A DNA stretch of 41,065 bases from Candidatus Cloacimonadota bacterium (GCA_029553545.1 JAKPKU010000215.1:1-41065); one strand, 5' to 3'; counted from the first letter of the stretch, positions 10,001 through 35,503 are shown. A program made the numbers and translations. The notes: a model not told the origin generated them from the letters alone.

Positions 10001-10045
10001 GAAATTTTTTTTCATGTTTTTAGAAATTTTTTTTCATTTTTTTGC
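10001..10045. promoter_or_regulatory. Tandem RpiR-type operator boxes
   Basis: The 15-mer GAAATTTTTTTTCAT occurs twice (10001-10015 and 10023-10037), with starts 22 bp apart, so both lie on the same helix face. Each contains an inverted half-site GAAA-N5-TTTC. The site lies between the divergent oxidase operon and the rpiR-like gene. The second box continues as TTTTTCATTTTTTTGC (10030-10045), and that 16-mer recurs exactly at 35311-35326. RpiR proteins commonly bind GAAA/TTTC-type dyads near their own gene. Assignment to this regulator is inference. Confidence 0.5.
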
Positions 10046-10096
10046 ATTTTTAACCACTTTATATTCTTTTTTTCACAAAAATGAACTAAAATAAAT

Positions 10097-10102
10097 TATA
10101 AT
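10097..10102 (+). promoter_or_regulatory. Probable -10 box of the rpiR-like gene
   Basis: A perfect TATAAT is found 27 bases before the ATG. The best -35 candidate is TTCACA at 10072-10077 with a 19-nt spacer, which is long, so promoter strength may depend on the regulator. Confidence 0.4.
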
Positions 10103-10129
10103 TATTTTAAGCAAAGGAAGATTAAAACC

Positions 10130-10984
10130 ATGATTAATTTACTGGCATCTATCAAAACACACTACGAAGATATGACAAATAGAGAGAAACGTATTGCGGA
10201 GTTCTTAACAAAAAACAATTTTGGAAAAATTTTCACAATTACTGAATTAGCTGAAAAATGTGATGTCAGTGAAGCAAGCATTTTCAGATTTGCAAAAACC
10301 ATTGGGTACAAAGAATATCCAGAATTAAAGATTGCAATCGCAAATCAAGAGTATCATTCATACAGTCTTAACATGAATAAAGACGATTCGATGTCCACAC
10401 TATTCTCTAAGGTTTGTGATGATGTTCTCTCATCATTAGGAAAAACAAAAAATCTTTTAAAAGAAGAAGCTTTAAACAAAACCGTTGAACTAATTATGGG
10501 TTCTAAATCCATATATTTATTTGGTGTTGCTAATTCCGGTAATATTTGTGGTGACTTTGAACATAAATTATTTAGATTAGGATTTAATGCCCGCTCATTA
10601 ACGGACTCGCACATGCAAATCATTGCAGCAAGTCAAATTACAAAAAAGCAATTAATTATTGCTGTTAGCCATTCCGGTAGAACAAAAGATATTTTAGAAT
10701 CAACAAAATTAGCAAAAGAAAACGGTGCGTCTGTTGTTGTTATGACAGCTTATGCTGATTCCCCATTAGCCGCAATGGGAGATGTTGTTCTATTAACTAA
10801 ATCAGACGAAACAAATTATAGAATGTTGGGTTTGTCTTCAAGATATGCTTTATTAGCCATTATTGATACAATCTATTCTTACATAGCAATTCATAGCGAA
10901 AACAAAAATCAAGTTTCACAAAAAATTGAAGAAGATATAGCAATTAAGCGTATCGAATCAAAAAAGAAAAAATCATCAAGATAA
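10130..10984 (+). CDS. RpiR/MurR-family transcription regulator
   Basis: A 284-residue regulator with an N-terminal RpiR-type helix-turn-helix (about residues 1-77, with L-A-E-K-C-D-V-S-E-A-S-I-F-R-F-A-K recognition-helix pattern). A C-terminal SIS sugar-phosphate-binding domain follows (about 110-260, G-V-A-N-S-G and S-H-S-G-R-T-K-D motifs). Family members sense phosphosugars and act as repressors or activators. It is divergent from the catabolic operon, and a tandem GAAA/TTTC box lies between them. It is followed 18 bases later by the LctP permease gene, probably in the same transcript. A lysine-rich tail ends the protein. It likely controls this locus. Confidence 0.9.
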   Translation: MINLLASIKTHYEDMTNREKRIAEFLTKNNFGKIFTITELAEKCDVSEASIFRFAKTIGYKEYPELKIAIANQEYHSYSLNMNKDDSMSTLFSKVCDDVLSSLGKTKNLLKEEALNKTVELIMGSKSIYLFGVANSGNICGDFEHKLFRLGFNARSLTDSHMQIIAASQITKKQLIIAVSHSGRTKDILESTKLAKENGASVVVMTAYADSPLAAMGDVVLLTKSDETNYRMLGLSSRYALLAIIDTIYSYIAIHSENKNQVSQKIEEDIAIKRIESKKKKSSR

Positions 10985-11002
10985 TAGTTAATATTTGTTC
11001 TT

Positions 11003-12661
11003 ATGTTTGCACTTTTAGCATTTGTTCCTATTTTTGTTTCGCTTATATTAATGGCTGTATTTAACGTTTCCGCAAAAATCAGCCTTCCAATTTCTTATGC
11101 ACTTGCGGTTATTTTAGGCTTAATTTTCTGGAAAATGGATTTCTTATCCGTTTTAGCCTATACATTATCAGGTTTGCTTAACTCTGTAGATGTTCTTGTT
11201 ACAGTAACAGGGGCTATTCTTTTAATGAATACATTAAAGGAAAGCGGCGCAATGAGTACAATTAACAAAGGGTTCTCAGCTATTAGTAAAGACAGCAGAA
11301 TCCAAGCAATTATTATTGGCTGGATGTTTGGCTCATTTATCGAAGGAGCGGCCGGTTTTGGTACACCAGCTGCATTAGCTGCACCACTATTAGTATCATT
11401 AGGATTCCCACCAGTATGTGCTGCTGCTGTTACATTAATCTTTGATAGCGCTGCGGTTTCCTTTGGTGCTATTGGAACTCCAGTAAATCAATCTATCGCT
11501 TGTTTAGGCACAACTATCGTTACAGATTCTTATGCTTCTTCAATATCTATGTGGACTGCAATACCTCACTCAATTGCAGCGATTGTAATTCCATTTATTG
11601 GCATCGCAATCATGTGCAAGTTTTTTTCTAAAGAAAAGTCTTTTAAACCAGCATTAGAAGTATTGCCATTCGCTATTTTCTCTGGCTTAGCATTTGCTAT
11701 TCCTTATTGTGTTATCGCCATATTCTTAGGCCCAGAATTCCCATCATTATTGGGTGCTTTAATCGGTTTAGTTATTACTATTCTTGCCGCAAAATTTGGC
11801 TTCTTGGTTCCTAAGAAAACTTGGACATTCCCTGAAGAACCTTCTTGGGATGATTCATGGAGATCAACCGCAGAACTCGCCAAGCCAAAAGAAAGCAATA
11901 TTTCAATGATTAAAGCATGGTTACCATATATCTTAATTGCTTTAATTCTTGTTATAACAAGATTGCCATTTTTACCTCTTAAGAGCATCCTTACAGGTAA
12001 TTCATATGCCGCTAATGTATTTGCAATTAAGATTCCAGAACTTTTTGGCGTTGCTAATACATCTTATACATTTAAGTGGGCATGGTTACCAGGAACGGTC
12101 TTTATTTTGATTTCAATCGTCACAATTTTCATTCACAAAATGACTAAAGATAATGTGAAAAAATCATTTAAAACTAGCGGTAAGCAACTTATAGGTGCAG
12201 CAATTTCTATCGTTTCCGGATTAGCTTTAGTGCAAATATTACGTTATTCAGGAGCCAATAGCGTTGATTCTTCAGAAATGAAATCAATGATCTTCTATAT
12301 GGCAGATGCCTTATCAAATGTTGGCAAGGCCTTATATGTTATTATTTCTCCAATAATTGGTATATTAGGTTCATTTGTTTCTGGTTCAAATACAGTTTCA
12401 AATACACTATTCACAAATTTGCAATATCAGTCAGCAGAAAATTTAGGATTACCAACAGTTCTAATTGTGGCAATGCAAATTATTGGTGGCGCAATTGGAA
12501 ATATTATCTGTGTTAATAACACTGTCGCAGTTTGTGCTACCGTAGGAACAAACGGAAAAGAAGGCAAGATTATTAGACTTAATTTAGTGCCAACTCTGAT
12601 TTACGCCACAATTATCATTTTGATATTTGTGTTCTTAATATTTGTTTTTAAAATCGCATAG
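11003..12661 (+). CDS. LctP-family lactate/glycolate permease
   Basis: A 552-residue, strongly hydrophobic protein with roughly 13-14 membrane spans. It matches the L-lactate permease (LctP/GlcA) family: the [16 protein letters not shown] block near residue 110, the conserved S-F-G-A-I-G-T-P, and a C-terminal [10 protein letters not shown] repeat. Family members move lactate or glycolate by proton symport. No clear ribosome-binding sequence precedes the ATG, so translation may be coupled to the regulator gene. Its presence beside an FAD oxidase/Fe-S/Etf set recalls anaerobic lactate operons. It could import the acid or export the end product. Confidence 0.9.
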
Positions 12662-12665
12662 AGCA

Positions 12666-12700
12666 TTAAAAAAGCGGGAATTGATTTCCCGCTTTATTTT
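12666..12700. terminator. Bidirectional terminator between lctP-like and isomerase genes
   Basis: AAAGCGGGAA (12671-12680) and TTCCCGCTTT (12686-12695) form a perfect 10-bp stem with a 5-nt loop. A-rich sequence on the left and T-rich sequence on the right make it work on both strands. It lies between convergent genes. Confidence 0.88.
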
Positions 12701-12711
12701 GGACATTTTGC

Positions 12712-14106
12712 TTATTTAATTGGATCAAAGATTAAATCAGCGTAGTAAGCGAACTCTTTGAGTTCTTCTGTATAGTCACCAGGAACTTCACTCATATGGT
12801 GAATATATGGACCTTTAACAATCTTTTCTTCTAATTGTGGAAGGTTTTCAAATTCAGCCCACATGTATGTACCGAATGTTTTTGGACCTGGGCAAGTATT
12901 GAAATGGCCTGCCAATAAATAGTATTGTCCCTTTTCAACTTGGAATCTTGAAATTGTGTAATCGCCATCTTTAAGTTTGAATGAAGGTTTTGTGTTGTAT
13001 AAGAATGGTTTAACACTTGGATCCTTGTATTCTAATGGGAATGGACCGCAGTGCCATAATAGTTCACTGTTGTCATTATGTGGGTGACGGCATGTGAATT
13101 CACCTTGAATTGGCTTAACAGAGCCTCTACCAGCGCTCATTAATAAAACATTGGTAATTGTCATGTGGATGTCCCATTCGCACGTTACAAAGACGTTTCT
13201 GTCGTTTAATAAGCACATTGCTAAGCATGGGTTAGCGCCCCAAGCAAGGTTGATACCAGTCCAGCATTCACTGGAGATAATATTGCAATCTTCTTTCTTA
13301 GCTAAGTTTTCATAATAATAGACAATAGCCAGCATTTTCTTTAAATATGTATCGTCTAATGAGCCAACATCAAATTTTTCTTTAAGATTAGCGAGGTCGA
13401 TGTCTAATTGCTCTTGTTTTGTATCCCAGATAGCGTTTAAATCTTGTAAAGCTTCGCTGAGGTTATAAATAACAATATCTGTTCCAAACTTTTCGCAAAG
13501 TTCAACTTCGTTATACATAATTGACTTGAACGGCTTGATTCTTGAACCAACTTGAACAATCTTCATGTTGTAGAAGTTCTTAACCATACAAGCAACAGAG
13601 AAGAATTTTTTAATTCCTTTATCAAAAGCTGGAGAAGCGATGTCGCAGTTTTCAATATATGAGAATTTGACATTATTTCTCTTTAATTGCTTGCCCATTG
13701 CAAACAATCCACATTGAGTATCAGTATATCTGATATCATTTTCAAAATGACGATCACGAGGACCCCAAAGTAAAGTTGGAACATGCAATTCTCTTGCAAC
13801 TAATCCTGCGCAGTCTTCGTTACCAAAATTGCAGTTAATAATGAATAAAGCGTCAATTTTTTGTTCTTTAAAATATTCCGCAACTTTAGCGCAGTCTTGG
13901 TCTAAGCAAAGAACGCCTTCTTCGTTTAACCAATCGATATCAATAAATTCAGTTTGCTCATCAGAATAATTCTTTTTGATATAAGGAATTATTTCCTTTT
14001 TGTTATCAACAGCGTAATCACTTTGGAAAATGCCGTATCTTTTTGGAGGTTCCTTAATCCATCTTCTAATAGGGAGCAATCCAATTTTTAATTTGTAATT
14101 TAACAT
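12712..14106 (-). CDS. L-fucose/L-arabinose-isomerase-fold protein
   Basis: A 464-residue protein that resembles the L-fucose isomerase-related family (FucI/AraA superfamily), which interconverts aldoses and ketoses using Mn2+. The middle part has S-S-E-C-W-T-G and C-E-W-D-I-H, plausible metal-binding acidic residues, followed by a C-terminal beta-rich domain (H-C-G-P-F-P) typical of FucI C-terminal regions. Start choice: the ATG at 14106 follows AGAAGG by 9 nt. An open frame continues 17 codons upstream without a site. It is the last gene of the long glycan operon, and its product would feed the kinases and aldolase of the other operon. Substrate is unknown; fucose, D-arabinose, L-arabinose and sulfoquinovose-like sugars are all possible. 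Confidence 0.72.
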   Translation of the reverse strand: MLNYKLKIGLLPIRRWIKEPPKRYGIFQSDYAVDNKKEIIPYIKKNYSDEQTEFIDIDWLNEEGVLCLDQDCAKVAEYFKEQKIDALFIINCNFGNEDCAGLVARELHVPTLLWGPRDRHFENDIRYTDTQCGLFAMGKQLKRNNVKFSYIENCDIASPAFDKGIKKFFSVACMVKNFYNMKIVQVGSRIKPFKSIMYNEVELCEKFGTDIVIYNLSEALQDLNAIWDTKQEQLDIDLANLKEKFDVGSLDDTYLKKMLAIVYYYENLAKKEDCNIISSECWTGINLAWGANPCLAMCLLNDRNVFVTCEWDIHMTITNVLLMSAGRGSVKPIQGEFTCRHPHNDNSELLWHCGPFPLEYKDPSVKPFLYNTKPSFKLKDGDYTISRFQVEKGQYYLLAGHFNTCPGPKTFGTYMWAEFENLPQLEEKIVKGPYIHHMSEVPGDYTEELKEFAYYADLIFDPIK

Positions 14107-14148
14107 AACTACTACCTTCTTTTCTATTAATGTTAATCTTTTTATTTT

Positions 14149-14171
14149 AAAAATCAAATAATTTGATTTTT
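14149..14171. repeat. Perfect AT palindrome between two operon genes
   Basis: AAAAATCAAAT (14149-14159) and ATTTGATTTTT (14161-14171) are perfect inverted arms with a 1-nt centre. It touches the stop of the GLUG gene and lies 43 bases before the isomerase ATG. It could be a weak terminator, an mRNA processing hairpin or a protein-binding site. Confidence 0.55.
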
Positions 14172-15508
14172 CAATCTACCAAAACGCAATTAGAGTGTGT
14201 ACCACCAGTGTCTTCCGCACCAAAGAATTGTTTTCTTTCAATTTCTGCGTCGTTTCCACCTGTAATATTTTCAATAACAACATTATTTATTTTAATGCCT
14301 TTTTTAGCGGAGCAATCAGTAACGCTGCCTCTATTTGTGCCAGTTATAGCACCTGAATAAACATCGCTACCAGTAACGTCTGCGTTATTAGTGCAATTAG
14401 TGATTGTAGACTTAGTTGTATATGGGCTACTTGATGCCACTCTTAGAATACCTACAATGCCACCTGTACGGCCGCCAGAAGTATTTGTGACTGTACCGTT
14501 ATTAGTACAATTAGAAATTTGCACAAGCGTTTTATCTACGTTTGAAGCTAGAATACCACCTGCACCTAAGCCATTGCACTTTACAGAACCGTTATTAACG
14601 CAATTTTCAATATAGCCTGTTCCACTATATAAGTAGCCTAGGATACCAGCGTTTCTTGGGCCGGTACCAGTAACACCTGCTCCATTGGAACAATTTTTAA
14701 TTGTGATGCCATTAACAGCAACACCAGCAATACCACCATTTTCTTGTGAACCTTTAATAGTGCCGCTTAAAACGTGAACATTTTCAATAGTGTCTCTTTC
14801 CGCTCTACCGACAATACCTGCGGTACGTTGCGATGTTGATGCTGTAGAATCAGTAGATTCGATATAAACGTTACTAAGTTTAAGATTCTTAATTGTAGCG
14901 TCGATCGCATTACCAAATAAAGCAGTACAGCCAGTTGATTTTCTAATATATAAATTAGAAATTGTATGATTTTGACCATCAAAAATTCCTTTAAAAGAAT
15001 TTGCTGTTGTAATGCCAATTCCTGTAGTCCAATGAGAGGTCAAAGTGATGTCTTCATCCAAAAGAACTGTATATCCTTGGTAAGTGAATCCGTTATTAAC
15101 ATCTTGTTGGAATTCCACCAAATCATCTTCATTAGCAATTCTAAAGACTTTTTCTTCAATTACTGGTTGGTTTTCTTCCTCGGTTAATTGAGCATCAGTT
15201 TTAATTGTTAAAACATATCTTGAGAAAGATGAATAAATAGCATCAAGTTGATTCAATGTAGTGGCGTTATTTAAACGAGTTTTCACTTCATTAATGAGAT
15301 TTGAAACTTCAACTTTTTGCGCTTCTCTATAAATAGAAAGATCTACTTTATCTAATTCAGCGATAAAATACGCTCTTACATCATTAACACTAGATTTGTT
15401 AGTGAAAGTAACGCTAGGAGAAGCAAAAGTAACATTTGTTTTAATAGTTAAACCGCCTAACATCAAAGCAGGAATAACAGCTAATCCTAAAAGTAATTTC
15501 TTTTTCAT
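14171..15508 (-). CDS. Secreted GLUG-repeat beta-helix protein
   Basis: A 445-residue exported protein. Residues 1-30 form a signal peptide (K-K-K start, hydrophobic core, probable cleavage after T-F-A-S) without a lipobox cysteine. A helical stretch follows (about 40-110). From about residue 130 a beta-helix begins with F-D-G-Q-N-H-T-I-S-N-L. It continues with GLUG-type repeats such as G-I-V-G, G-G-I-A-G, A-G-I-L-G, G-G-I-L-A and G-G-I-V-G, spaced by N-C-x-N motifs. The C-terminal tail F-F-G-A-E-D-T-G-G-T is shared in pattern with the lipoprotein at 32839-35229. No LPXTG motif or membrane anchor is seen. Its role is probably binding of a surface or glycan ligand. Confidence 0.75.
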   Translation of the reverse strand: MKKKLLLGLAVIPALMLGGLTIKTNVTFASPSVTFTNKSSVNDVRAYFIAELDKVDLSIYREAQKVEVSNLINEVKTRLNNATTLNQLDAIYSSFSRYVLTIKTDAQLTEEENQPVIEEKVFRIANEDDLVEFQQDVNNGFTYQGYTVLLDEDITLTSHWTTGIGITTANSFKGIFDGQNHTISNLYIRKSTGCTALFGNAIDATIKNLKLSNVYIESTDSTASTSQRTAGIVGRAERDTIENVHVLSGTIKGSQENGGIAGVAVNGITIKNCSNGAGVTGTGPRNAGILGYLYSGTGYIENCVNNGSVKCNGLGAGGILASNVDKTLVQISNCTNNGTVTNTSGGRTGGIVGILRVASSSPYTTKSTITNCTNNADVTGSDVYSGAITGTNRGSVTDCSAKKGIKINNVVIENITGGNDAEIERKQFFGAEDTGGTHSNCVLVD

Positions 15509-15522
15509 AACCTTATTTCCTC

Positions 15523-17970
15523 CTACTTATCTGCATTCCTGATTGCTTCAATAACTAATGGAGCAACCATTTGATATGCTTCCACTGTTGGGTGAAGATT
15601 ATCCACGAAATATGAAGCTTGTGGTTGTCCGTTAACGCAGTAAATATCCTGAACGTCAACGTAAACTAACCAATCTTTTGATTCGCAATATGTTTTTAAA
15701 TTGCTATTAAATGATTCAATTTGGCTCATTCTTGCCATTGGCTTTTCATGAGTGCATTTACTTGTAGCTAAAACTGCACATTTAAAATTTGGATTAATTT
15801 CTTTAATACCTTCGAGACACTTTTTCATGTTTGCCATTATAGTTTCAACACTAATGTCTGCATCAATATCATTAACACCATTCCAATAAATGCCCCATCT
15901 TGCTTTATAGGAAGCAACTTCGTTTAAATATTGATTTGAGAATGTTCCTGTTTGAGAACCGCCAATACCAATATCTAAAATATCGCTTGTTAATGGAGCA
16001 AAATCTTTTTTGTAATTATGCCAAAGTTGTGTATATGAGTGACCAAAGATGAGATATTCACAAGTGAGTAAATCAGTAGAATTCTTAAATGTGATATCAC
16101 CGCTTAAGCTTGCACCCTTACTAGCGCTCTTAAAGCCAGCATATTTACCAGTTAATGGTTGTTCATCGATATATTCAAAGATACATCTATCATCAAAATA
16201 GACATTGATCTTATTTCCATTCATGACAACTTTCATCTTTCCGGCGAGATTCATGAAGTTTGGATAATATTTGAGAATTGACCATGTAGCGGTGCCGTTA
16301 ACAAATTTACCAAATCTGACACGGCTTGCTTCAGAAAATTCTACCATGTAATAAGAAAGTCCTTCTTCGCTTTCATAGAAAGAATCAGTATTAGGTTTTG
16401 TTAATCTGAAAACTAAACCAGAGCCAACATTTTTACCTAATGAGATTTCTGCTTCGAGGGTTCCATTTTCTGGTAATTGTTCTTTTAGAAGAAGCATTGA
16501 TTTATTCTTTTCAGCACAAATCAAATCTCCTAAACCATACCATGATCCACTAGAAACATCGTATTTAGCTTTCCAGTTATCATTGCTGCTTGCATAGTTC
16601 TTTGTTGTGACTTTCGAGTATGTAACTCCATGTCCTGATGTGCAAATAGCAAATTTAGTGCCAGTAAACATATGGAGACCAGAATAGCTCATTTGATATA
16701 AGCCATCAAAGTAAACATGTATTTCTTTAGTATCTTTAACAACTTTAATTGTGTGTTCTTTGTTGATATCAAACCAAGGTGTGTTCTTGCTCTTTAAAGT
16801 AACAGGGCTACCGCCATCGACAGAAGAAAGATATAAAGTACCTTGTTTAGAAAGATATAAATAATAGTAGGAAACACCAGTTTCTCTGAAGAAGGTTGTG
16901 CTTCCATTGTTATCAATACAAAATGCTAAGCCAACATTGTTGGTCATATCTTTAGCGTTGAATGTTGCTTCTAATTCACCAACAACAAATTCTTTAGATT
17001 TGTGATAGGCAATGGTCATATCTTGCGTAACTTCAAAGCCATTATTAGTAACATTTCCACTACCATGAGCAATGCCATAGTTTTCAAATTTAGAATCCAT
17101 GAAACTGGAATCGCTATTTATAACCATATTTTTGAATTCACTTCCTTTTGAACCAGAATAGATACCTGCTTTGGCACTGCTATTTAATGTGACATTATCA
17201 CTATAAACGCAATTATTATCTACCCAATAATCTACACTTGATGTCTCTTTATCAAGGCTAATTGTTAATGTTGCTTTAGTATTTATTTCAACATTATATA
17301 AAGCTTTAACTAATCTCAAGTTAGTGCCATCGTAGTAAGTAATTTGAGCCTTTTTATAAGAATTAAACCCAAAAGAGTAATAGGTTTCTGTAACATCGTT
17401 ATAATTGAAGAACACAAAGTGATCGTAAGTAAATTCCTTTGGAGAAACTTCAATTTGGAATGTGCCATTATCAAAATTATTAACTAATGTTTTAGCGGCA
17501 CGATAATCATCGGCTACATACTGTCCATCTTTTTCAGTGAATGTAGAAGTTAAATCAGATAATTTTTCGCTTCCAGGAATGAAAGGATATTCTTTAGAAT
17601 CAACAGTAAATGATAAGGAGCCAACTGAAGTACCCTTATTCATAACGGCGAGAGTATAAACGCCTTCATTCAATTCAGCATCCAAACTAACTTCGCTCAT
17701 TGATGGGTCTTTTAAAACAAGAGACAATTCATTTGTTAAAAGTTCGGAATAGCCAATAGTCTTTTCAGTCGCATCTGAATAGAATAACTTAAATAATAAT
17801 GTTGAGGTATTTAATTTATCTCCTTCAACATAATTAAGCTTAGTGTCTGTTATAACTACAGATTCAATCGTAGGAATTGTAACAACTTCTTGCTCTGGTG
17901 GTTTTTTTCCACCACAAGCAGAAAGAGTAAACAGCATTCCTAAAACAATAATACTTTTTGAAATTTTCAT
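15523..17970 (-). CDS. Lipoprotein with concanavalin-like modules and SGNH hydrolase
   Basis: An 815-residue surface lipoprotein with lipobox L-S-A-C (Cys19). An Ig-like segment with V-E-G-D-K-L spans about residues 35-125. Three beta-sandwich modules of LamG/DUF1080-like type follow (about 130-640), each with V-Y-F-D or I-H-V-Y-F-D strands. The C-terminus is an SGNH/GDSL hydrolase: block I F-G-H-S-Y-T (Ser near 645), block II G-I-G-G-S, block III N-G-V-N-D and block V D-N-L-H-P-T (His near 793). Block I has G-H-S instead of G-D-S. Likely activity is carbohydrate esterase (deacetylation) on an extracellular glycan. Its ATG overlaps the TGA of the membrane-protein gene upstream. Confidence 0.82.
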   Translation of the reverse strand: MKISKSIIVLGMLFTLSACGGKKPPEQEVVTIPTIESVVITDTKLNYVEGDKLNTSTLLFKLFYSDATEKTIGYSELLTNELSLVLKDPSMSEVSLDAELNEGVYTLAVMNKGTSVGSLSFTVDSKEYPFIPGSEKLSDLTSTFTEKDGQYVADDYRAAKTLVNNFDNGTFQIEVSPKEFTYDHFVFFNYNDVTETYYSFGFNSYKKAQITYYDGTNLRLVKALYNVEINTKATLTISLDKETSSVDYWVDNNCVYSDNVTLNSSAKAGIYSGSKGSEFKNMVINSDSSFMDSKFENYGIAHGSGNVTNNGFEVTQDMTIAYHKSKEFVVGELEATFNAKDMTNNVGLAFCIDNNGSTTFFRETGVSYYYLYLSKQGTLYLSSVDGGSPVTLKSKNTPWFDINKEHTIKVVKDTKEIHVYFDGLYQMSYSGLHMFTGTKFAICTSGHGVTYSKVTTKNYASSNDNWKAKYDVSSGSWYGLGDLICAEKNKSMLLLKEQLPENGTLEAEISLGKNVGSGLVFRLTKPNTDSFYESEEGLSYYMVEFSEASRVRFGKFVNGTATWSILKYYPNFMNLAGKMKVVMNGNKINVYFDDRCIFEYIDEQPLTGKYAGFKSASKGASLSGDITFKNSTDLLTCEYLIFGHSYTQLWHNYKKDFAPLTSDILDIGIGGSQTGTFSNQYLNEVASYKARWGIYWNGVNDIDADISVETIMANMKKCLEGIKEINPNFKCAVLATSKCTHEKPMARMSQIESFNSNLKTYCESKDWLVYVDVQDIYCVNGQPQASYFVDNLHPTVEAYQMVAPLVIEAIRNADK

Positions 17971-18965: not shown

Positions 18966-18981
18966 AGATAATTATTAATTA

Positions 18982-26610: not shown

Positions 26611-26622
26611 GCATATACCTCC

Positions 26623-29196
26623 TTATTTCAAAATAAACAATTGGTGATTCGCTTGAGAAGAAAGAGGTGTGTCTAAGCACGTAACGATATTATCTTTCAA
26701 AATGAAACGAGACTTTTCACCAGTGGAATAGAAACGAATTGTAGTTTTACTTGTTTCACTACATTCCCATGCACCAAAAGTAATGTTTTTGCTTGAATTT
26801 AATGTTGCACTGCTTGGTGCGCCACCCATTTCAAGTAAATCTTGATATGTAAAACTAAATGTGTATTTTTTGCCACCATTAAATGCTTCACAACTATATT
26901 TAGAGGAGTTCACATCATGGGCATCTAAAGTTAAGTTTTGAGCCACACCATTGTTATGTGGTCTATGTGACCACCAGAGTTGGTTAGCGGAATTTACAGT
27001 GAAATCGTTTGCTCTTGTATAACAAGCAGTTCCATCACTATATAATCTGAGGTTGATGTCGTAACAATTAGAGTTAACATTCATCTTCCACGCAGTCATT
27101 GCGTTATCATCAATACCAATAATCATATTTAAGGCTTCAAGGCCAGTTAATGAATATGCTGGATTGATGTGAGTGCCAAAGCCATCATCAACAACAAATG
27201 AAATTTTTACACCAGTTGAATTCTTAGTGTAAGTTATAAAGAAATGATCGCCATTTTCAGGAATAGCTTCGTTTGATGCACCAGCAATAGAATTGATATA
27301 CATCACTTCTTCATTTGGATTAGCATCGTTATTTAAAGCGAAGAAGCATTTTCCATCTTTATCAAAACGAGCATATAAAGCTGTTGAGTCAGCGTTAATT
27401 GTGTTGTCAGGAGAATCAGAAGTATTTGTTAATTCATATGCTTCTGAATTGAAGTATTTATAAGCTAAACCAACTGTATCACTATTTTGTTTTTCGTAAG
27501 CACTAGCTGGAATAGTTAAATATGTATCGTATAAAACATCGATTTCTTCAGATACAGTAATTTGATTTGAGAGATTAGAATCTTCAACCCATTGTTTGCT
27601 GGTTGAATTATAAGCAAATACCTTAGGTGTTTTGTTAGAATATGTCACTTTATAATCACCGTCTGAATATGCTTTATTAAATCCAGAATCGCCAGTATTA
27701 ACATAGATTTCTAATTCTTCTTCATCTTCAATAGCGTATTTAGATTCGCCTTTAAAGACAAAGCCATTTAATGTCTTAGTAACATAACCAGATAAGCTGT
27801 TCATATTTCCTGAACTACTTGGTTCACCAAGACAAGTGAAAATGTTATAAATTTCAAATGTTCCAAGATCTTTATTAGCCACAGCATTTTCACTAGAAAC
27901 TGTAATACGTTTTGTTTCGTATCCTTTTTTGGAAATTAATAATGTATTAACAGTATTCTTATATACTTTTGCGGTAAATTCGCCATTAGCGTTCGTCTTG
28001 TAAGATGTTGTATCGCCTTCAATAGAGACTTCAAAATCTTTTAAAGAATCCGCTAAGCAGGTAATCTTACCTGTAACATCCACTTTAGAACCCGCTAAAT
28101 AGGTTGGGTAAAGGCGAATGTCTTTAGAACATACTGAAGACATGCTCTTTTTGAGCTTGCCGGATTCAATAATGTATTTAAATGGGAAGAATCCATCTTT
28201 AGAAATTTCAACTTGGAAATCAGAATTTACTGGAACGTTATCAAAATAGAAACAACCATTATTTCCAGTTGTAACAACATAGTCAGAGTCCCCATTAACA
28301 CTAAATCCATTAACAGTAGCGCCTACAACTGGAGAACCAGTGTTATCGACAATTTTGCCAAAAACTGTAGGATTGGAATAAAGAGATTTAGCGTAATTAG
28401 CTTTAGAATATAATTTGTTTTCTTTAGTTAAAACTAAATATGCATCAGGGTTAGTGGTTGCGCTCACTTTGTATTGGTCACTTCTACCAGCTAAACCATA
28501 CCATTTACGTGAATCACCTCTATGAGATAAATCAGCATGAGCAAAAGTTAAACAAACAGGTGAATTTTTAGTGGTACCTAAAATAGAATAAGGAATCTTT
28601 GCTTCAAGATAGTAGCCCTTATCAGTATCAGTTTCATCATTTAATGTGGTATTAGACATTAGGGATGATTTGTAATCCATATAGATGTTACCGGCTTTCC
28701 AACCAGTACCAGTACCCACTAGTCTTCTTGAATAACCAGAAAGGCCTAAATTTAATTGGATATCATCACTTCTTGGAGATGTTCCACCATCTGCTAAAGG
28801 ATCAATATAAATTTCCACACCATCTTCGTTATAAGCACTAGATGAACCAGTAGCTTGAGTAAGAACATTAGTGTCATTTACTTCAAAAAGGAAAAATAAA
28901 TTCGCATTATCGTGATAAGTGAATAAATTAACACTTTTACCACTAGCACCACCATATGTTAAACATGGTGTATTTCCATATAGAGCGTCTTTTTTCCCAT
29001 CAAAATTAATTAAGCTCTTGGATTGTTCTCCTTCAAAATCAAAAGATTCATCAGAAGTAGTTTTGTGAGAATCATAATTTTTATAGGTTATGTTATTTAT
29101 TGCTTCAGCAATTACACTAGAAAACTGTTTTGTTCCTAATGCTACAAAGGAAGCACAAGCAACAATAGCCAATGCTTTAAATGTAGAATTTTTCAT
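26623..29196 (-). CDS. Exported CBM9-like protein with carboxypeptidase-regulatory-like domains
   Basis: An 857-residue exported protein with a signal peptide (residues 1 to about 32, no lipobox). Residues 55-260 resemble a CBM9-like domain: I-N-F-D-G-K-K-D-A-L-Y-G, L-F-F-L-F-E-V-N-D-T-N-V, and E-D-G-V-E-I-Y-I-D-P. Two carboxypeptidase-regulatory-like folds follow (about 295-460, G-K-I-V-D-N-T-G-S-P-V-V-G-A-T-V and T-N-A-N-G-E-F). A further pair of CBM9/family-9-like modules occupies the rest. No hydrolase motif is seen. A role in binding the glycan at the surface is likely. Anchoring is not obvious, since the C-terminus lacks a sorting signal. AAGGAGG precedes the ATG. Confidence 0.72.
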   Translation of the reverse strand: MKNSTFKALAIVACASFVALGTKQFSSVIAEAINNITYKNYDSHKTTSDESFDFEGEQSKSLINFDGKKDALYGNTPCLTYGGASGKSVNLFTYHDNANLFFLFEVNDTNVLTQATGSSSAYNEDGVEIYIDPLADGGTSPRSDDIQLNLGLSGYSRRLVGTGTGWKAGNIYMDYKSSLMSNTTLNDETDTDKGYYLEAKIPYSILGTTKNSPVCLTFAHADLSHRGDSRKWYGLAGRSDQYKVSATTNPDAYLVLTKENKLYSKANYAKSLYSNPTVFGKIVDNTGSPVVGATVNGFSVNGDSDYVVTTGNNGCFYFDNVPVNSDFQVEISKDGFFPFKYIIESGKLKKSMSSVCSKDIRLYPTYLAGSKVDVTGKITCLADSLKDFEVSIEGDTTSYKTNANGEFTAKVYKNTVNTLLISKKGYETKRITVSSENAVANKDLGTFEIYNIFTCLGEPSSSGNMNSLSGYVTKTLNGFVFKGESKYAIEDEEELEIYVNTGDSGFNKAYSDGDYKVTYSNKTPKVFAYNSTSKQWVEDSNLSNQITVSEEIDVLYDTYLTIPASAYEKQNSDTVGLAYKYFNSEAYELTNTSDSPDNTINADSTALYARFDKDGKCFFALNNDANPNEEVMYINSIAGASNEAIPENGDHFFITYTKNSTGVKISFVVDDGFGTHINPAYSLTGLEALNMIIGIDDNAMTAWKMNVNSNCYDINLRLYSDGTACYTRANDFTVNSANQLWWSHRPHNNGVAQNLTLDAHDVNSSKYSCEAFNGGKKYTFSFTYQDLLEMGGAPSSATLNSSKNITFGAWECSETSKTTIRFYSTGEKSRFILKDNIVTCLDTPLSSQANHQLFILK

Positions 29197-29216
29197 AATA
29201 ATCCTCCTTAAACGTC

Positions 29217-30110
29217 CTAACCTTTAACGGCGCCAAAGGACATAGATTTGATAAAGAATTTTTGTAAAACGAGATAAATAGCAATCATTGGTAAGCAGGA
29301 TAAAACAGCACCAGCAAATGTGACTGTATAGAATCCGGAACCAGAAGCTTGTGAATTGAGTTTGTACATCAAGACTTGTAATGTAGCGTTCTCGTTGCTT
29401 AAGTAAATGGATGGACCAAAGAAGTCGTTCCAAATACCCATAAACCAGAAAATACATTGCGCTGCAATTGCAGGTAATAAGAGAGGAAGCATAATTTGAA
29501 GGAACATTCTAAATGTAGAACATCCATCAATCTTAGCAGCTTCAAATAATTCGCTTGGAATACCCATCATGTACTGAATGAAGAAGAACATCATAGAAAC
29601 ATGTATGAATAAGTGTGGGACAATCAAAGGTAATGGAGTACCAATCCAGCCCAAAATATCATATGCAACGTATCTAGGCATTAATAATACAGCGCCAGGA
29701 ATCATCATTCCGGAAAGTAAGAACAATAACCAGAAACGTTTATGTCTTAATCTTAATTTAGAGAAAGAGAAAGCAGCAAATGCAGCAAAGAAAGTGCCAC
29801 AAGGAATGACACAAATTTCAATGAACATTGTGTTTCCATAACCTTTAACTAAATCAACATAGTTAGCGATCAATTTATAGTTTTCGAATGTGAATTTACC
29901 ATCGATGAACATTGTGACATTGCTGAGGTAATTCTCCCAACCTCTTAAAGATGAAAAGACCATGAAAAGAAGAGGGAACAAAACTAAGAAGGCTAAGAAG
30001 GCTAAGAATAAGTTAGCCCCGATAGCGGATAAAATACCTAAGATTTTATCTTTTTTGTCTCTTTTTTGTTTATCAGTGAGGACTGGTTTTTGTTTAACAA
30101 CATTTTCCAT
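29217..30110 (-). CDS. ABC sugar permease, MalG/MsmG-type (CUT1)
   Basis: A 297-residue inner-membrane permease with six predicted spans. The conserved permease EAA loop is visible as E-A-A-K-I-D-G-C-S-T-F with L-P-L-L-L-P-A, the contact site for the ATPase. An N-terminal Lys-rich cytoplasmic tail precedes the first span. It pairs with the MalF-type permease encoded upstream and uses the solute-binding lipoprotein two genes upstream. CUT1 systems import di- and oligosaccharides. The ATPase is encoded separately at 35540. A good AGGAGG precedes the ATG. Confidence 0.92.
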   Translation of the reverse strand: MENVVKQKPVLTDKQKRDKKDKILGILSAIGANLFLAFLAFLVLFPLLFMVFSSLRGWENYLSNVTMFIDGKFTFENYKLIANYVDLVKGYGNTMFIEICVIPCGTFFAAFAAFSFSKLRLRHKRFWLLFLLSGMMIPGAVLLMPRYVAYDILGWIGTPLPLIVPHLFIHVSMMFFFIQYMMGIPSELFEAAKIDGCSTFRMFLQIMLPLLLPAIAAQCIFWFMGIWNDFFGPSIYLSNENATLQVLMYKLNSQASGSGFYTVTFAGAVLSCLPMIAIYLVLQKFFIKSMSFGAVKG

Positions 30111-30121
30111 AATACATCCTC

Positions 30122-31084
30122 CTATAAATCAAGAACCCATTTATTAGAGAATCTAAATTGGAGAATTGTGATTCCCATAATAACAAGTCCGAGTAATAAT
30201 GCTGCCGCGCTGGCAATGGAATAATTCTGTTTATTCAAGCCATAGTTCCAAATGAAATAAACGATAGATTGAACGTCGCGATCGCCAGCAGCAAAGATGT
30301 ACGAGTCAGCGTATGTCTGCAAGCACCCGCTTAGTCGCATGATTAAAAGATAGAAAGTAACCGGAGTTAACATTGGGAAGGTAATTTTGGTAAATTTTTG
30401 TAAACCATTAGCACCATCAATGTCAGCGGCTTCATAATAATCTTTTGAAATATTACACATTGATGCGTAATACAAAATCATCGCAGAGCCCATAGAACCA
30501 ATAGAGTTCTTAATGATAATCGCACTGATTAATGGGATACGATCATGTAACCATCTAATATCAATGTGGAAAAGTGTGTTGATAATACCAGCAGAGCTTG
30601 CTGTTCCACCATCAGAGAAGATTGCTCTCCAAATAACGTTAGAAGCAACAGCACTACAAACAGCTGGTAAATAAATTAATAATCTCCAAAGGTGATTTGT
30701 TTTCTTACATCCTTTTGCATTAGCTAATGTAGCGGCAATTAAACCTAAGAAAATAGCGATTGGAACTTCAATAATAAAGGATAAGGTATTAACAATAGCT
30801 TTTAAGAAGTTAGAACCATAAGTGCTATTAGGATTTAATAACTTTGCAAAGTTATCAAAGCCTACAAACGTGTATTGGAAAGTTGCGCCGTTAAAGTCTC
30901 CAAGGGAGAACATAACAGCAACAATTAAAGGTATGATTGTAAAAATTGTAAAAGAAATAACTGGAGGAAGTATGAAAAGGAAGGCAATTCTATTTTCCTT
31001 CTTTTCAATTTTGGTTCTCTTTCTCTTTTTTTCTTTAGTGTTATAAGAAAGAGTCTGTGTGTTTAATGTATAAGCTAAATCCAT
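30122..31084 (-). CDS. ABC sugar permease, MalF/MsmF-type (CUT1)
   Basis: A 320-residue permease with six spans and a long charged N-terminus (K-E-K-K-R-K-R-T-K). The EAA loop reads E-A-A-D-I-D-G-A-N-G-L with F-P-M-L-T-P. It forms a heterodimer with the downstream MalG-type permease. The ATG is 1 nt after the stop of the solute-binding protein gene, so expression is tightly linked. Confidence 0.92.
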   Translation of the reverse strand: MDLAYTLNTQTLSYNTKEKKRKRTKIEKKENRIAFLFILPPVISFTIFTIIPLIVAVMFSLGDFNGATFQYTFVGFDNFAKLLNPNSTYGSNFLKAIVNTLSFIIEVPIAIFLGLIAATLANAKGCKKTNHLWRLLIYLPAVCSAVASNVIWRAIFSDGGTASSAGIINTLFHIDIRWLHDRIPLISAIIIKNSIGSMGSAMILYYASMCNISKDYYEAADIDGANGLQKFTKITFPMLTPVTFYLLIMRLSGCLQTYADSYIFAAGDRDVQSIVYFIWNYGLNKQNYSIASAAALLLGLVIMGITILQFRFSNKWVLDL

Positions 31085-31085
31085 C

Positions 31086-32660
31086 TTAACGGCCTAAACG
31101 TGAATTGTATTGTGATAACCAGTCATCCAGTGTGCTCTTGTAGATTTTAACTACATCAGCGCCTTTACAATTAGGATTTGTCCAGAAGTTTGCTTTATCA
31201 ACAGCATTACTCCAGTCATCCTTCCATTCATTACCTAAAGTTCTAGTTTGAGTTTTTGCTCTACCAGAAACTCTATCTGTGGCACTGCAGCCATCAACTG
31301 AGTCAATGAAAACATATAAGTTAGATGGATTAACATCAACTTTGCCACCAGCGTATTGTGTAATTTGACCTTCGCCAAATTCAATATATTCATCTTTTAA
31401 GGATTTTAATGTTGGGAACATGGAACCAGATTGATATAAATCTCTTTGGCATTCTTCTGTCATAGACATCCATTTTAAGAATTTTAAGCTTGCTGCACGT
31501 TGGAGGTTTGTAGTTGTGGATTTACCAGAAATACAATAACCAGCGGAGCCAATTTGACAACTACTAACACCATCATCGCTTGTGCCATAAGCACCATCAG
31601 CACCTGGGCCATATGGGCATGGTAAAACTTTGATAGTGAAATCAATAGCGGTTGGTTTTACTGGAGTAACGCCCCAGAATGTTTCACAGTCCCAAGGTCC
31701 AACCCAAGAGAAGATTGAGTTTTGACCAACGAAGGATGTGTAACCAGCAGAAGTAGATGTACCACTAGAACCAGCCATTAAGCCAGTTTTATTGGATCCG
31801 CCTTCACCAAAGCCTAAAGAATGTAAGAAATCTAAAGCTGCAGCGAATTGTGGTTCTTCAACTCTAGAAGCAGAGCCATCATCTGTAGTGAAATCAGCGT
31901 TATTAGAATATAAAGCTGCATAAAGTTCGTAGTGAGATAAGAAATATTTATCGTGGTTACGGCAATAAGGATTAATTAAAGCACCTAATTCACGGAACTC
32001 ATTCCAGTTCATAGGAGATTTATCATTTAGATATCTAGTTTTAATTGTGTTCCATTCATATTTTGCATCGCCTGTTTGTTGGAGTAATTCCTTACAAGCG
32101 GCTTTTAATAATGTTTCGTTATATGCCATTTGGAAAACAGATAAGTCTTTTGGAATTGCGTATAAGCCAGCATCATCTGTTTTACCAACAGTCTTTGTAT
32201 TCTTGTCATAGAAATATCTAGCCATACAGTCATCCCAAACACTATCAACTTCAGCGTTAGTAACATAATCTCTGAAGTTCCAAATGATTTGGTTGAATGC
32301 GTAATAATAGAAGTCAGTATCAGGAACAAAGAAGCAATCTGGTAAATCGTTAGAAGAGTTTGCTAACTTTGTAAGATATGTACTTGAAGGTGTACATGTG
32401 TATTTAATATGGATATTTGGGTATTTAGCTTCAAATTTTTTAGCAACGTTTGTGTAAATAGCTTCAGTAGTTGTGCTGCCCCATGTCCAGAAATCAATAT
32501 AGACATCTTTATCTTCTGGAATAACAATCTCGCCTGTTGCTTTGTTGTAATACTCATCAATTTGAGCATCAGTAACAATCCTTGAAATGTTACAACCACT
32601 AGTAAATAAAGAGGTCACAATAGATGTCACCATAACTGGCAATATTTTTTTAATTCTCAT
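31086..32660 (-). CDS. Extracellular sugar-binding lipoprotein (SBP family 1)
   Basis: A 524-residue lipoprotein (T-S-G-C, Cys23) of the family-1 solute-binding proteins used by CUT1 transporters. After the linker it shows I-D-F-W-T-W-G, then V-A-K-K-F-E-A-K-Y-P-N-I, and later F-S-W-V-G-P-W and a helical C-terminal region typical of the fold. At 524 residues it is longer than common maltose-type binders (about 400-440), suggesting a large oligosaccharide ligand. It is the first gene of the long operon, with a promoter at 32708-32736 and a GAAA/TTTC box at the predicted start site. Confidence 0.9.
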   Translation of the reverse strand: MRIKKILPVMVTSIVTSLFTSGCNISRIVTDAQIDEYYNKATGEIVIPEDKDVYIDFWTWGSTTTEAIYTNVAKKFEAKYPNIHIKYTCTPSSTYLTKLANSSNDLPDCFFVPDTDFYYYAFNQIIWNFRDYVTNAEVDSVWDDCMARYFYDKNTKTVGKTDDAGLYAIPKDLSVFQMAYNETLLKAACKELLQQTGDAKYEWNTIKTRYLNDKSPMNWNEFRELGALINPYCRNHDKYFLSHYELYAALYSNNADFTTDDGSASRVEEPQFAAALDFLHSLGFGEGGSNKTGLMAGSSGTSTSAGYTSFVGQNSIFSWVGPWDCETFWGVTPVKPTAIDFTIKVLPCPYGPGADGAYGTSDDGVSSCQIGSAGYCISGKSTTTNLQRAASLKFLKWMSMTEECQRDLYQSGSMFPTLKSLKDEYIEFGEGQITQYAGGKVDVNPSNLYVFIDSVDGCSATDRVSGRAKTQTRTLGNEWKDDWSNAVDKANFWTNPNCKGADVVKIYKSTLDDWLSQYNSRLGR

Positions 32661-32689
32661 ATATTTTTTCTCCTTTTTGGCAAAAATAT

Positions 32690-32702
32690 GAAATTTATTT
32701 TC
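32690..32702. promoter_or_regulatory. GAAA/TTTC operator at the transport operon start
   Basis: GAAATTTATTTTC is a GAAA-N5-TTTC dyad of the same design as the boxes at 10001 and 10023. It covers the predicted transcription start (about 32701) of the minus-strand operon. A repressor bound here would block initiation directly. Confidence 0.5.
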
Positions 32703-32707
32703 AATTT

Positions 32708-32736
32708 ATTCTAAACTAATAATTTCAATATTACAA
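32708..32736 (-). promoter_or_regulatory. Promoter of the glycan transport/degradation operon
   Basis: On the minus strand, -35 TTGTAA (32736-32731) and -10 TAGAAT (32713-32708) are separated by 17 nt. The start would be near 32701, about 40 bases before the binding-protein ATG at 32660. A ribosome site (AGGAGAAA) follows. Confidence 0.62.
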
Positions 32737-32789: not shown

Positions 32790-32816
32790 TTAAAAGAAAA
32801 AGGGAGCATTGCTCCC
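32790..32816 (-). terminator. Terminator of the CxxC/GLUG lipoprotein gene
   Basis: On the minus strand GGGAGC (32816-32811) and GCTCCC (32807-32802) form a 6-bp GC-rich stem with a 3-nt loop, followed by TTTTTCTTTT. It lies just after the stop at 32839 and separates that gene from the transport operon. Confidence 0.82.
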
Positions 32817-32838: not shown

Positions 32839-35229
32839 TTATTCACTAATAAGTTCACAACCAGTATTTGTGCCACCATTGTCTTGGCCGCCATAGAATA
32901 CATTGGTCAAAGTTCCGACAACTGCACCATTAACAGTGATAGTGTCTAAGACTTTGCAGTTCTTGAGAATGCCTCTATTAATACCAGCTAATGATCCTGC
33001 ATTATTTGGATTCGAACCTTGAACATTGCCTTTTTGAGTGCAATTTTCAAATGTGTTGCATGCTGATGCAGCAGTAGCACCAGGAACGCGTCCTTTTCTA
33101 ATTAAGCCACATAATCCACCAACATATTGGCCAGCAGAAGTTACATTGCCTAAATTTAAGGAATCTTTTACTTCAAAATATGCATTATCGACATTGATAC
33201 CAACAAGACCAGCAATACCGTAATTTGTAGAGGTATTATTAACATCACCTTTGTTTGTAATGTTTGTAGCATAGAGTTGATCGTAAGCTTTAGCTAATCT
33301 ACCAACGATACCACCAACACCTTCGCCCTTAGCGTTAATAACGCCTTCGTTTGTGGTGTCTTCAATTGTGACCTTGGTAAATGCTGTTGCTTTACCACCG
33401 CCAACTAAGGAACCAATAATACCACCAGTACCTCCTTCAGCATTGACTTCGCCTTTATTAACAGTATTACCTCTTATTTCGCAAACCGCTGTGCTCCATA
33501 AGTTACCAACAATACCGCCAGTTCCAAACAAGGTCGCACCAGTACTATCAACAACATTAGTGCCAACAATCTTTCCATCGTTTTCACAGCCAATAATTGT
33601 GACAGTACCAGCAATAGCACGTCCTAAGATACCACCAGTAAACGCTTTGCTTGTGACAAGGCCTTCGTTGACGCAGCCTTGAATGGTTAAATTACCACTA
33701 TGGAGGTAGCTAACGATACCACCATTGTTAGAGTCTGAACCAGTGACCATAGCTTTATTTGTACAATTTTTAATTGTAGCGCTATTAACAACAATACCAA
33801 CAATACCAGCATTTTGTTGAACGCCACTAACTGAGCCAGATAAAACATTAACATTTTCAATTGTGGCGTTTTCAGCACGAGCAGCTAAAACAGCAGCTCT
33901 TTGTGTTTTGCCAACAATATAAGCATTTGCAAAATTTAAATTTTTAACAGTGCCATTTAATCTAGAGAATAATGCGCGAGAATCTCCGCCTTTTTCTAGA
34001 GTAGAAGCATCAATAGTCAAATTGCTGATTGTGTGATTGTCACCATCGAAAATACCAGCAAACTTGTGATTATCATCAAGACCGATACAAGTTCCAAAGT
34101 CAACACCATGTTCAGAATCTTCTTCAAGCTCGAATGTAATGTCATTAGCGAGTTTGAAGTATGTATTTTCAAAGACTAATTTGTTTTCGTTAGTAGCGCT
34201 ATTAACATCATCTCTTAATGTCTTTAAATCCTTAATATTTTTAATTAAATATGGATTTGTTTCAGAGTTTTCAAATGTCATATCATCTTTTTGGAAATGA
34301 TTAACAGATGTTGGTTCGATTTCTTGTTTATCGTCGCCTTCTTTATCGAAGTATTTTCCACATCTTGTGCATTCATAGTGTTCATCACAACCAGAAGCAT
34401 AGGAAGCTGCAACTGAAGCAACATGAATAACATCATGGCCTAATGCAGTGCCATATGTAAATTCTTCATTAGTCATTTCGCCGCATTTGCTACAAACTTT
34501 AAAATATTTAGCAGCTTGTTCACAATTTGCTTCGCTGATAAAGTTGATAGGTTTACCATTTTCACCTAATGTTTCAGAAATTAATTCTGAATAATCATGA
34601 CCAAAATGAGTGGATGTGAAGACGTTGTCAGGATTAGCTTCAAATTCACCACAAACACAGGATTTGTAGTATTTAGAACCATGTGTGCAGTCGCCTTCTT
34701 CAAATAAATACTTTTCATCTTCAACTTCTTGATCGTAAGTATGAGAAGTAATTTTATCTAATGTAACACTTTTAGTATTGTGACATTTTGTACAAGTATA
34801 AACTTTTGTACCTTCTGCTGTATGTGTTGGAGAAAAGGTAATTTTTCCATCATTCCAGGTGTGGTCTTCTACTTGTTTATCACCACAATCAGAACATTGT
34901 CTTGAGTGTTTTTCTTCGCCTTCGGATATCCAAGCACTATATTCATGGTCTGCTAATGTACCATATTCATGGCCACAAACGGTACAAATTGCTTTCTTTG
35001 TGCATGCAGCTGTTCCGCCAGTGTGAGTTGCTTTATCGACAACTTCATTGCATTCAGAACAGGTTTTCCAGTGTTCAGTTTCAGAACATACCCAATCGCT
35101 TAATGTGTGGGTGTGAACTACTGGATCATCAGTTCCTGAATTATCGTCATTTGGTTTACTGCAGCCAGTAAATGCCACTACTGAAAAAGCAAAAGTAGCA
35201 AACATTGTAAAAGCATGTTTAATTTTCAT
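32839..35229 (-). CDS. Lipoprotein with CxxC repeats and GLUG beta-helix
   Basis: A 796-residue lipoprotein (F-T-G-C, Cys23). Residues about 38-330 hold a series of small His/Cys units, each with a C-x2-C pair (C-S-E-C, C-T-V-C, C-S-D-C, C-T-K-C, C-S-K-C, C-T-R-C; one reads C-V-C). These look like zinc-ribbon-type surface repeats. A beta-helix follows: F-D-G-D-N-H-T-I-S-N-L near 400, then GLUG-type repeats (G-I-V-G, G-G-I-L-G, G-G-I-V-G, G-G-I-I-G, G-G-L-C-G). The tail Y-G-G-Q-D-N-G-G-T matches the secreted GLUG protein at 14171-15508 in pattern. It probably binds a ligand at the cell surface. The ribosome site is oddly placed (see the upstream mini-ORF). Confidence 0.75.
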   Translation of the reverse strand: MKIKHAFTMFATFAFSVVAFTGCSKPNDDNSGTDDPVVHTHTLSDWVCSETEHWKTCSECNEVVDKATHTGGTAACTKKAICTVCGHEYGTLADHEYSAWISEGEEKHSRQCSDCGDKQVEDHTWNDGKITFSPTHTAEGTKVYTCTKCHNTKSVTLDKITSHTYDQEVEDEKYLFEEGDCTHGSKYYKSCVCGEFEANPDNVFTSTHFGHDYSELISETLGENGKPINFISEANCEQAAKYFKVCSKCGEMTNEEFTYGTALGHDVIHVASVAASYASGCDEHYECTRCGKYFDKEGDDKQEIEPTSVNHFQKDDMTFENSETNPYLIKNIKDLKTLRDDVNSATNENKLVFENTYFKLANDITFELEEDSEHGVDFGTCIGLDDNHKFAGIFDGDNHTISNLTIDASTLEKGGDSRALFSRLNGTVKNLNFANAYIVGKTQRAAVLAARAENATIENVNVLSGSVSGVQQNAGIVGIVVNSATIKNCTNKAMVTGSDSNNGGIVSYLHSGNLTIQGCVNEGLVTSKAFTGGILGRAIAGTVTIIGCENDGKIVGTNVVDSTGATLFGTGGIVGNLWSTAVCEIRGNTVNKGEVNAEGGTGGIIGSLVGGGKATAFTKVTIEDTTNEGVINAKGEGVGGIVGRLAKAYDQLYATNITNKGDVNNTSTNYGIAGLVGINVDNAYFEVKDSLNLGNVTSAGQYVGGLCGLIRKGRVPGATAASACNTFENCTQKGNVQGSNPNNAGSLAGINRGILKNCKVLDTITVNGAVVGTLTNVFYGGQDNGGTNTGCELISE

Positions 35230-35238
35230 ATATTAAAA

Positions 35239-35259
35239 TCAATTCAGCATTGATCCTCC
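35239..35259 (-). promoter_or_regulatory. Strong ribosome site leading into a three-codon ORF
   Basis: The only good site, AGGAGG (35260-35255), is 4 nt before an ATG at 35250 that reads Met-Leu-Asn-stop (TGA 35241-35239). The real lipoprotein ATG is at 35229, 25 nt after the site and in the same frame. Initiation may occur by short-range reinitiation, or the leader may be regulatory. Confidence 0.4.
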
Positions 35260-35267
35260 TGCTTATT

Positions 35268-35273
35268 ATTATA
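35268..35273 (-). promoter_or_regulatory. Probable -10 box of the CxxC/GLUG lipoprotein gene
   Basis: On the minus strand a perfect TATAAT lies at 35273-35268, about 40 bases before the ATG at 35229. No good -35 box is visible 16-18 nt upstream, and the GAAA/TTTC box at 35304 lies just behind that position. Confidence 0.4.
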
Positions 35274-35303
35274 AAAGATAAAAAAAGGATATAAAGAAAA
35301 ATT

Positions 35304-35326
35304 GAAACTATTTTTCATTTTTTTGC
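35304..35326. promoter_or_regulatory. GAAA/TTTC operator, lipoprotein side
   Basis: GAAACTATTTTTC (35304-35316) has the GAAA-N5-TTTC design. The overlapping 16-mer TTTTTCATTTTTTTGC (35311-35326) is identical to 10030-10045 beside the regulator gene. It lies upstream of the lipoprotein promoter in the divergent region. Confidence 0.5.
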
Positions 35327-35420
35327 GGTTTTTAAAACAATACATAAATTTGAAATCAGAGCAAATATGGCAAAAATGAATAGTTTTTTCTATTTAACAT
35401 TAAATTTATTTAAGCTGCTT

Positions 35421-35450
35421 TTGATGAAATTAGTGGATATAAATTATATT
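35421..35450 (+). promoter_or_regulatory. Candidate promoter of the ABC ATPase operon
   Basis: TTGATG (35421-35426) and TATATT (35445-35450) with an 18-nt spacer form the best sigma-A-like pair upstream of the ATPase gene. The start would be near 35457, leaving a leader of about 80 nt. The region is very AT-rich, so other pairs are possible. Confidence 0.35.
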
Positions 35451-35489
35451 TTTGTTTTAATTTCGAAAGAATCAATATAGAATAAAAAA

Positions 35490-35503
35490 GAAAGTTTTTT
35501 TTC
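35490..35503. promoter_or_regulatory. GAAA/TTTC operator, ATPase side
   Basis: GAAAGTTTTTTTTC has the same half-sites with a 6-nt centre. It lies in the 5' leader of the ATPase gene, 37 bases before its ATG, where bound repressor could block elongation. Confidence 0.4.

Follow-up and report, generated by a model that had tools for sequence, protein, structure and literature searches.

In the RpiR family, the described systems closest to the locus reported here are the NanR regulators of Clostridium perfringens and Streptococcus pneumoniae and the RccR regulator of Pseudomonas. In C. perfringens, GAAAAATATTTTC is found in the nan promoters close to the start sites and has been proposed as the NanR site (PMC4509764). 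The S. pneumoniae NanR site is TCTGAAASTACTTTCARA (PMC12713135, PMC4509764); in the DNA-bound structure of this regulator, Arg56 recognizes the G in TCTGAAA, backbone contacts are made by Ser50 and Lys59, and Arg67 enters the minor groove at the centre of the site, and bridging to a half-site 23 bp away has also been proposed (PMC12713135). The Pseudomonas RccR site, TGTAGTAAAACTACA, follows TGTAG-N5-CTACA and thus comprises 15 bp with a 5-bp centre (PMC5489143).

We analysed a stretch of DNA of 41,065 nucleotides (hereafter the window, contig C83 of bin G000), for which an earlier note had proposed that a shared GAAA-N5/6-TTTC box defines a single RpiR regulon. Judging from the sequence, we put at roughly 0.65 the probability that all five boxes serve as operators for the RpiR-family regulator encoded at 10130-10984 and form one local sugar-responsive regulon. 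This is the best reading because the regulator, as the earlier note had stated and a domain search of the window genes bore out, is the only recognizable one in the window. The features of the locus are collected in Table 1.

Table 1. Predicted transcription units, promoters and GAAA-N5/6-TTTC boxes of the window; extended elements are taken from the box alignment.
Feature	Coordinates	Strand	Description	Extended element
Eight-gene operon	1182..9907	-	GlcD-like FAD oxidase, GlcF-like Fe-S protein, IolB isomerase, aldose epimerase, FGGY kinase, fused ETF, class II aldolase, PfkB kinase; gaps <=14 bp	
glcD operon promoter (predicted)	9935..9962	-	TTGAAA-16-TATAAT, 11/12	
Box 1	10000..10023	+	TGAAATTTTTTTTCA, palindrome at 10000-10014, extension TGTTTTTAG	TGAAATTTTTTTTCATGTTTTTAG (from 10000)
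Box 2	10022..10045	+	AGAAATTTTTTTTCA, extension TTTTTTTGC; 22 bp (~two helical turns) from box 1	AGAAATTTTTTTTCATTTTTTTGC (from 10022)
RpiR-family regulator gene	10130..10984	+	HTH_6 + SIS, 284 aa; proposed reader of the boxes	
LctP-family (L-lactate permease) transporter gene	11003..12661	+	18 bp after rpiR	
Eleven-gene transporter/GH43 operon	12712..32660	-	solute-binding protein (SBP), two permeases, CBM9 protein, three GH43 enzymes, GDSL esterase, others; gaps <=20 bp	
Box 3	32680..32703	-	TGAAAATAAATTTCA, palindrome at 32689-32703, extension TATTTTTGC; ~+1 of predicted transporter/GH43 operon promoter	TGAAAATAAATTTCATATTTTTGC (32680-32703)
Transporter/GH43 operon promoter (predicted)	32708..32736	-	TTGTAA-17-TAGAAT, 9/12; box 3 at start site	
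Terminator-like hairpin	32802..32816	-	3' of the 796-aa gene, which it parts from the transporter operon	
796-aa lipoprotein gene (single)	32839..35229	-	GLUG-like repeats, weak Pfam match	
796-aa gene promoter (predicted)	35268..35295	-	TTTATA-16-TATAAT, 10/12	
Box 4	35303..35326	+	TGAAACTATTTTTCA, extension TTTTTTTGC; directly upstream of the predicted -35 of the 796-aa lipoprotein gene	TGAAACTATTTTTCATTTTTTTGC (from 35303)
Box 5 (weakest)	35489..35512	+	AGAAAGTTTTTTTTCATTTTTTGA, N6 spacer, one T fewer; upstream of the ABC ATPase gene	
ABC ATPase operon	35540..39477	+	MsmK/MalK-like ABC ATPase (35540-36814), 111-aa protein, 771-aa GLUG-like lipoprotein	

All five boxes are present at the positions previously reported (10001, 10023, 32690, 35304 and 35490), and further details of that report also held: the boxes at 10001 and 10023 are the same 15-mer (GAAATTTTTTTTCAT), the 16-mer TTTTTCATTTTTTTGC has two exact copies only, at 10030 and 35311 (0 expected), and each box lies in promoter DNA. 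Three boxes match TGAAA-N5-TTTCA exactly and two are near copies, distributed over the starts of rpiR/glcD, of the SBP gene and of lipoprotein/ATPase. Between 1182 and 39477, no predicted transcript start lacks a box in its upstream region, and the rest of the intergenic DNA in the window is free of boxes. Relative to the predicted promoters, which are consensus matches only and about as numerous as in the shuffle background, box positions are mixed (at the start site or upstream of the -35), boxes 1 and 2 being upstream of the -35 of the predicted glcD promoter. The regulator gene and the LctP-family transporter gene that follows it are probably co-transcribed.

Several other features of the window were recorded. 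The ETF gene at 2916-4277 encodes a single 453-aa protein in which beta-like and alpha-like parts are fused; in L037, a locus from a Spirochaetes MAG, these are two separate genes. At the end of the GH43 operon, 12712-14157 encodes a 481-aa protein that, given a weak match to the C-terminal domain of L-fucose isomerase, is a possible sugar isomerase. The listed start codon of the 796-aa lipoprotein gene is preceded, at 35229-35260, by AGGAGG and then a small inverted repeat (ATCAATGCTGAATTGAT) with the mini-ORF ATG CTG AAT TGA inside. An ISL3-family transposase gene at 39660-40388, present as a single copy in the bin, is 28-30% identical to plasmid copies from lactic acid bacteria and their kin. 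An Rfam search of the window yielded one tRNA and nothing else.

The regulator carries an N-terminal HTH_6 domain (PF01418, 62.1 bits against a cut-off of 28.3) and a C-terminal SIS phosphosugar-binding domain (PF01380, 65.8 bits against a cut-off of 25), and aligns over almost its full length with solved RpiR regulators, including the RccR-type structures 8ju9/8k3b, which are its best PDB matches, pneumococcal NanR (8tx9/8v4v) and Vibrio NanR (4ivn). Matches to the named subgroups AlsR, HexR and MurR reached 106-178 bits, all under the curated NCBIfam cut-offs (296-408). At the positions aligned with Arg56, Ser50, Ala52 and Lys59 of NanR the residues are identical, and the position of Arg67 is occupied by a proline. 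Because of this proline and the 4-bp spacer of the NanR site, contacts at the operator centre must differ from those of NanR; the conserved residues together with the proline would agree with recognition of the same half-site around a different centre (4 bp for NanR, 5 bp here).

The boxes have the form of an RpiR operator, as their length, symmetry and half-site fit published RpiR/NanR-type sites; like RpiR-type operators, they are palindromes within the 14-18 bp range located in promoters of a regulator and its putative targets. The locus resembles that of C. perfringens NanR in combining an RpiR-family regulator with GAAA-N5-TTTC at several sugar-use starts in very AT-rich promoters, but its genes are those of GH43/ABC transport and of a GlcD/IolB/FGGY/aldolase operon rather than sialic-acid genes, and the C. 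perfringens element is itself only a proposed NanR site. With the activator NanR of S. pneumoniae, the locus shares TGAAA/TTTCA half-sites, several sites in one locus and paired sites ~22-23 bp apart (22 bp for boxes 1 and 2; tetramer bridging is proposed for NanR). However, the S. pneumoniae type, defined by TGAAA-N4-TTTCA and Arg67, does not extend to the window, where the spacer is N5, the aligned residue is proline and sialic-acid genes are absent. RccR likewise has a 15-bp pseudo-palindrome with a 5-bp centre and two copies in one promoter, whereas RccR and HexR differ from the system described here in half-site (TGTAG versus TGAAA), in their central metabolism targets and in site length (15 and 28 bp; PMC5489143).

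An alternative explanation is that the boxes are operators of another, global regulator whose gene lies elsewhere in the source genome, for example a CcpA-like catabolite regulator with a cre resembling TGAAANCGNTTTCA. Sites of the cre type are usual in sugar loci of Gram-positive-type bacteria. The TGAAA...TTTCA half-sites also overlap with the published cre consensus, given as WGWAARCGYTWWMA (PMC6528599) and as tTGAAAGtGtTTaCAa (PMC12713135). By contrast, cre is a 14-bp palindrome of even spacing with a central CG, and the centre of every box is 5 or 6 bp long and has no CG, features on which we rejected a CcpA site; moreover, two of the boxes fall within the divergent rpiR/glcD start region. 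We consider operation by a global regulator unlikely.

For the window as a whole, GAAA-N5/6-TTTC has 11 matches against 5.1 expected, and this loose pattern is weak alone because the six matches other than the boxes are all intragenic; the signal is the concentration of boxes in promoters, not the frequency of the pattern across the window. This concentration is not random: in three promoter regions of 222, 178 and 310 bp (710 bp; 79-83% AT), the five boxes compare with 0.16 expected from dinucleotide shuffles or 0.28 from a second-order Markov model, and a count of five was reached in none of 2,000 simulations under either null model. When all intergenic DNA was taken as the scope, the box count had P ~0.0005. 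The strict form, TGAAA-N5-TTTCA, was seen three times (0.02 expected), and a palindrome family count of 3 was reached in 0 of 3,000 simulations in a look-elsewhere control covering every 5-bp half-site with G or C and spacers of 3-9.

Four of the boxes also carry an asymmetric extension that the earlier note had not described, WGAAA-N5-TTTCATNTTTTT, usually followed by GC. Exact matches to WGAAANNNNNTTTCATNTTTTT in the 2.88-Mb bin number four, namely boxes 1-4, and the chance that T.TTTTTGC follows any given TTTCA is 2-3 in 10,000 in this DNA. With leave-one-promoter-out matrices, each held-out site came immediately after the training sites in a ranking of 82,084 positions. A sigma-54 promoter, considered for the TTGC that ends the extension, was rejected, there being no GG at -24.

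These data also bear on two further explanations. The boxes could represent common features of AT-rich promoters, such as UP elements, A-tract bending or T-runs, or else chance low-complexity matches, as T predominates in their spacers and extensions, the DNA around them is 79-83% AT and T-runs are frequent between genes. The earlier note had itself raised such an artefact of AT-richness as a challenge to its proposal, but shuffle and Markov controls of the same composition fail to give the box counts, and the invariant G and C of the palindrome as well as the GC after the T-run are common to three promoter regions, which makes this explanation very improbable. If a single promoter segment had recently been duplicated within the locus, without selection for binding, this would fit the exact 16-mer and some further flank similarity common to boxes 2 and 4 and the 22-bp tandem of boxes 1 and 2. 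Such an origin is very improbable given that box 3, on the opposite strand and with a different spacer, retains both palindrome and extension, and an operator copy, even if duplicated, would still be an operator.

The GlcD/GlcF/FGGY part of the cluster recurs in distant genomes, several with IolB, aldolase, PfkB or ETF genes, and searches of 400, 296 and 399 genomes from two other groups found distant GlcD-cluster homologues and no close RpiR orthologue (<=38% identity). The GlcD-like/GlcF-like/FGGY cluster (1182-9907) was observed at L037, L131, L132 and L146-L149, with varying gene combinations, and no paper was found in the literature that names the GlcD/GlcF/FGGY/IolB/aldolase/PfkB/ETF combination. 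GlcD is 66% identical to that of the window in L037, 71% in G766, 57% in G866 and ~50% in G606 and G462. In L037 and G866, with 57-66% GlcD identity, an RpiR homologue adjoins GlcD. L037 is the closest readable syntenic RpiR locus, and here TGTAATAGTATTACA lies between the divergent genes with the same 15-bp layout and another half-site, a single palindrome in ~360 bp that is not significant alone; if it is the counterpart of the boxes, the 15-bp layout would be conserved in L037 and the exact half-site would not. No such palindrome was seen in G866, and in G766, where no RpiR gene adjoins the cluster, the box scan gave 7 places versus 15 for the reversed control. Among 58 relatives of the bin, only weak SIS-domain matches and no RpiR orthologue were found. 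The proposal of one RpiR regulon is supported in part, by the shared element, a box near each predicted start, the RpiR-like form of the site, the sole recognizable regulator and the recurrence of an RpiR homologue beside GlcD in L037 and G866. Against it count the different half-site in the syntenic L037 locus, the proline at the Arg67 position, the 4-bp spacer of the NanR site and the mixed box positions.

The contig is almost certainly misbinned. Its tetranucleotide correlation to the bin is 0.49-0.61, and every 5-kb stretch of the window lies at 0.38-0.65 to the bin and at 0.75-0.87 to the rest of the window; among 20 sampled stretches from fifteen other bin contigs, correlations were 0.85-0.92. 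Genes for tRNA-Ser with the anticodons GGA, TGA, CGA and GCT are already present in the bin, and the tRNA-Ser(GGA) of the window is a second, dissimilar one, with matches in a plasmid collection that are mostly from Bacillota; likewise, the window RpiR is the sole HTH_6 protein of the bin. The uniform composition of the window and the lack of a host-like flank favour a binning error over a foreign island. The contig is therefore unfit for describing the genome under which it is filed, and box counts in the bin are uninformative on the source genome because the contig appears not to belong to it.

A scan of the bin for the box gave 63 places; of the 50 listed, 35 share a single 15-mer that belongs to an unrelated dispersed repeat. 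The bin was rejected as a genome-wide background, as most of the listed places are the core of this repeat and the window almost certainly comes from another genome. A copy of the TGAAAATAAATTTCA 15-mer on contig C205 was also set aside, this short contig having neither composition and the copy lacking extension and promoter context. The dispersed repeat itself (CACCCTCTATATATATAGGGC...TTTTTTGAAAACTATTTTCACC...GCAGATGCCTACTACGAGCGGGTTTAGAGGTGATTTTTTT) is very conserved, ~100 bp long and found in bin G000 at L001:1460-1565 and at least 34 further places, none of them in the window. It has three predicted hairpins, a terminal T-run and almost no covariation, had no match in Rfam and is a candidate mobile repeat or RNA.

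Returning to a local RpiR regulon as the preferred reading, its members would be rpiR, the oxidation/kinase/aldolase operon, the 20-kb transporter and GH43 operon, the lipoprotein gene and the ABC ATPase operon. In this reading, binding, effector and sign of regulation are inferred. One RpiR dimer would occupy each TGAAA-N5-TTTCA palindrome. The 22-bp offset of boxes 1 and 2 sets both on one face of the helix between divergent promoters, an arrangement that would accommodate either a tetramer or a pair of cooperating dimers. The SIS domain may bind a phosphosugar derived from the adjacent pathway, which would alter DNA binding or the oligomer state. Box 3, at the transcription start, appears placed for repression, and boxes 1, 2 and 4, upstream of -35 elements, appear placed for activation or looping. 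A control circuit of this sort is of an ordinary bacterial type. A more specific possibility, which we offer tentatively and regard as doubtful, is that the functional operator is a directional composite of palindrome, fixed T-run and GC (WGAAA-N5-TTTCATNTTTTTGC), recognized by an RpiR of a lineage without a close sequenced relative, and that by way of a single phosphosugar signal it links plant polysaccharide import and cleavage to an oxidase/IolB/FGGY/aldolase pathway that has been little described.

With the boxes, an RpiR regulator from an uncultured lineage gains a concrete candidate operator. By joining the transporter/GH43 operon to a catabolic operon whose substrate is uncertain, the proposed regulon would also narrow the search for that substrate.
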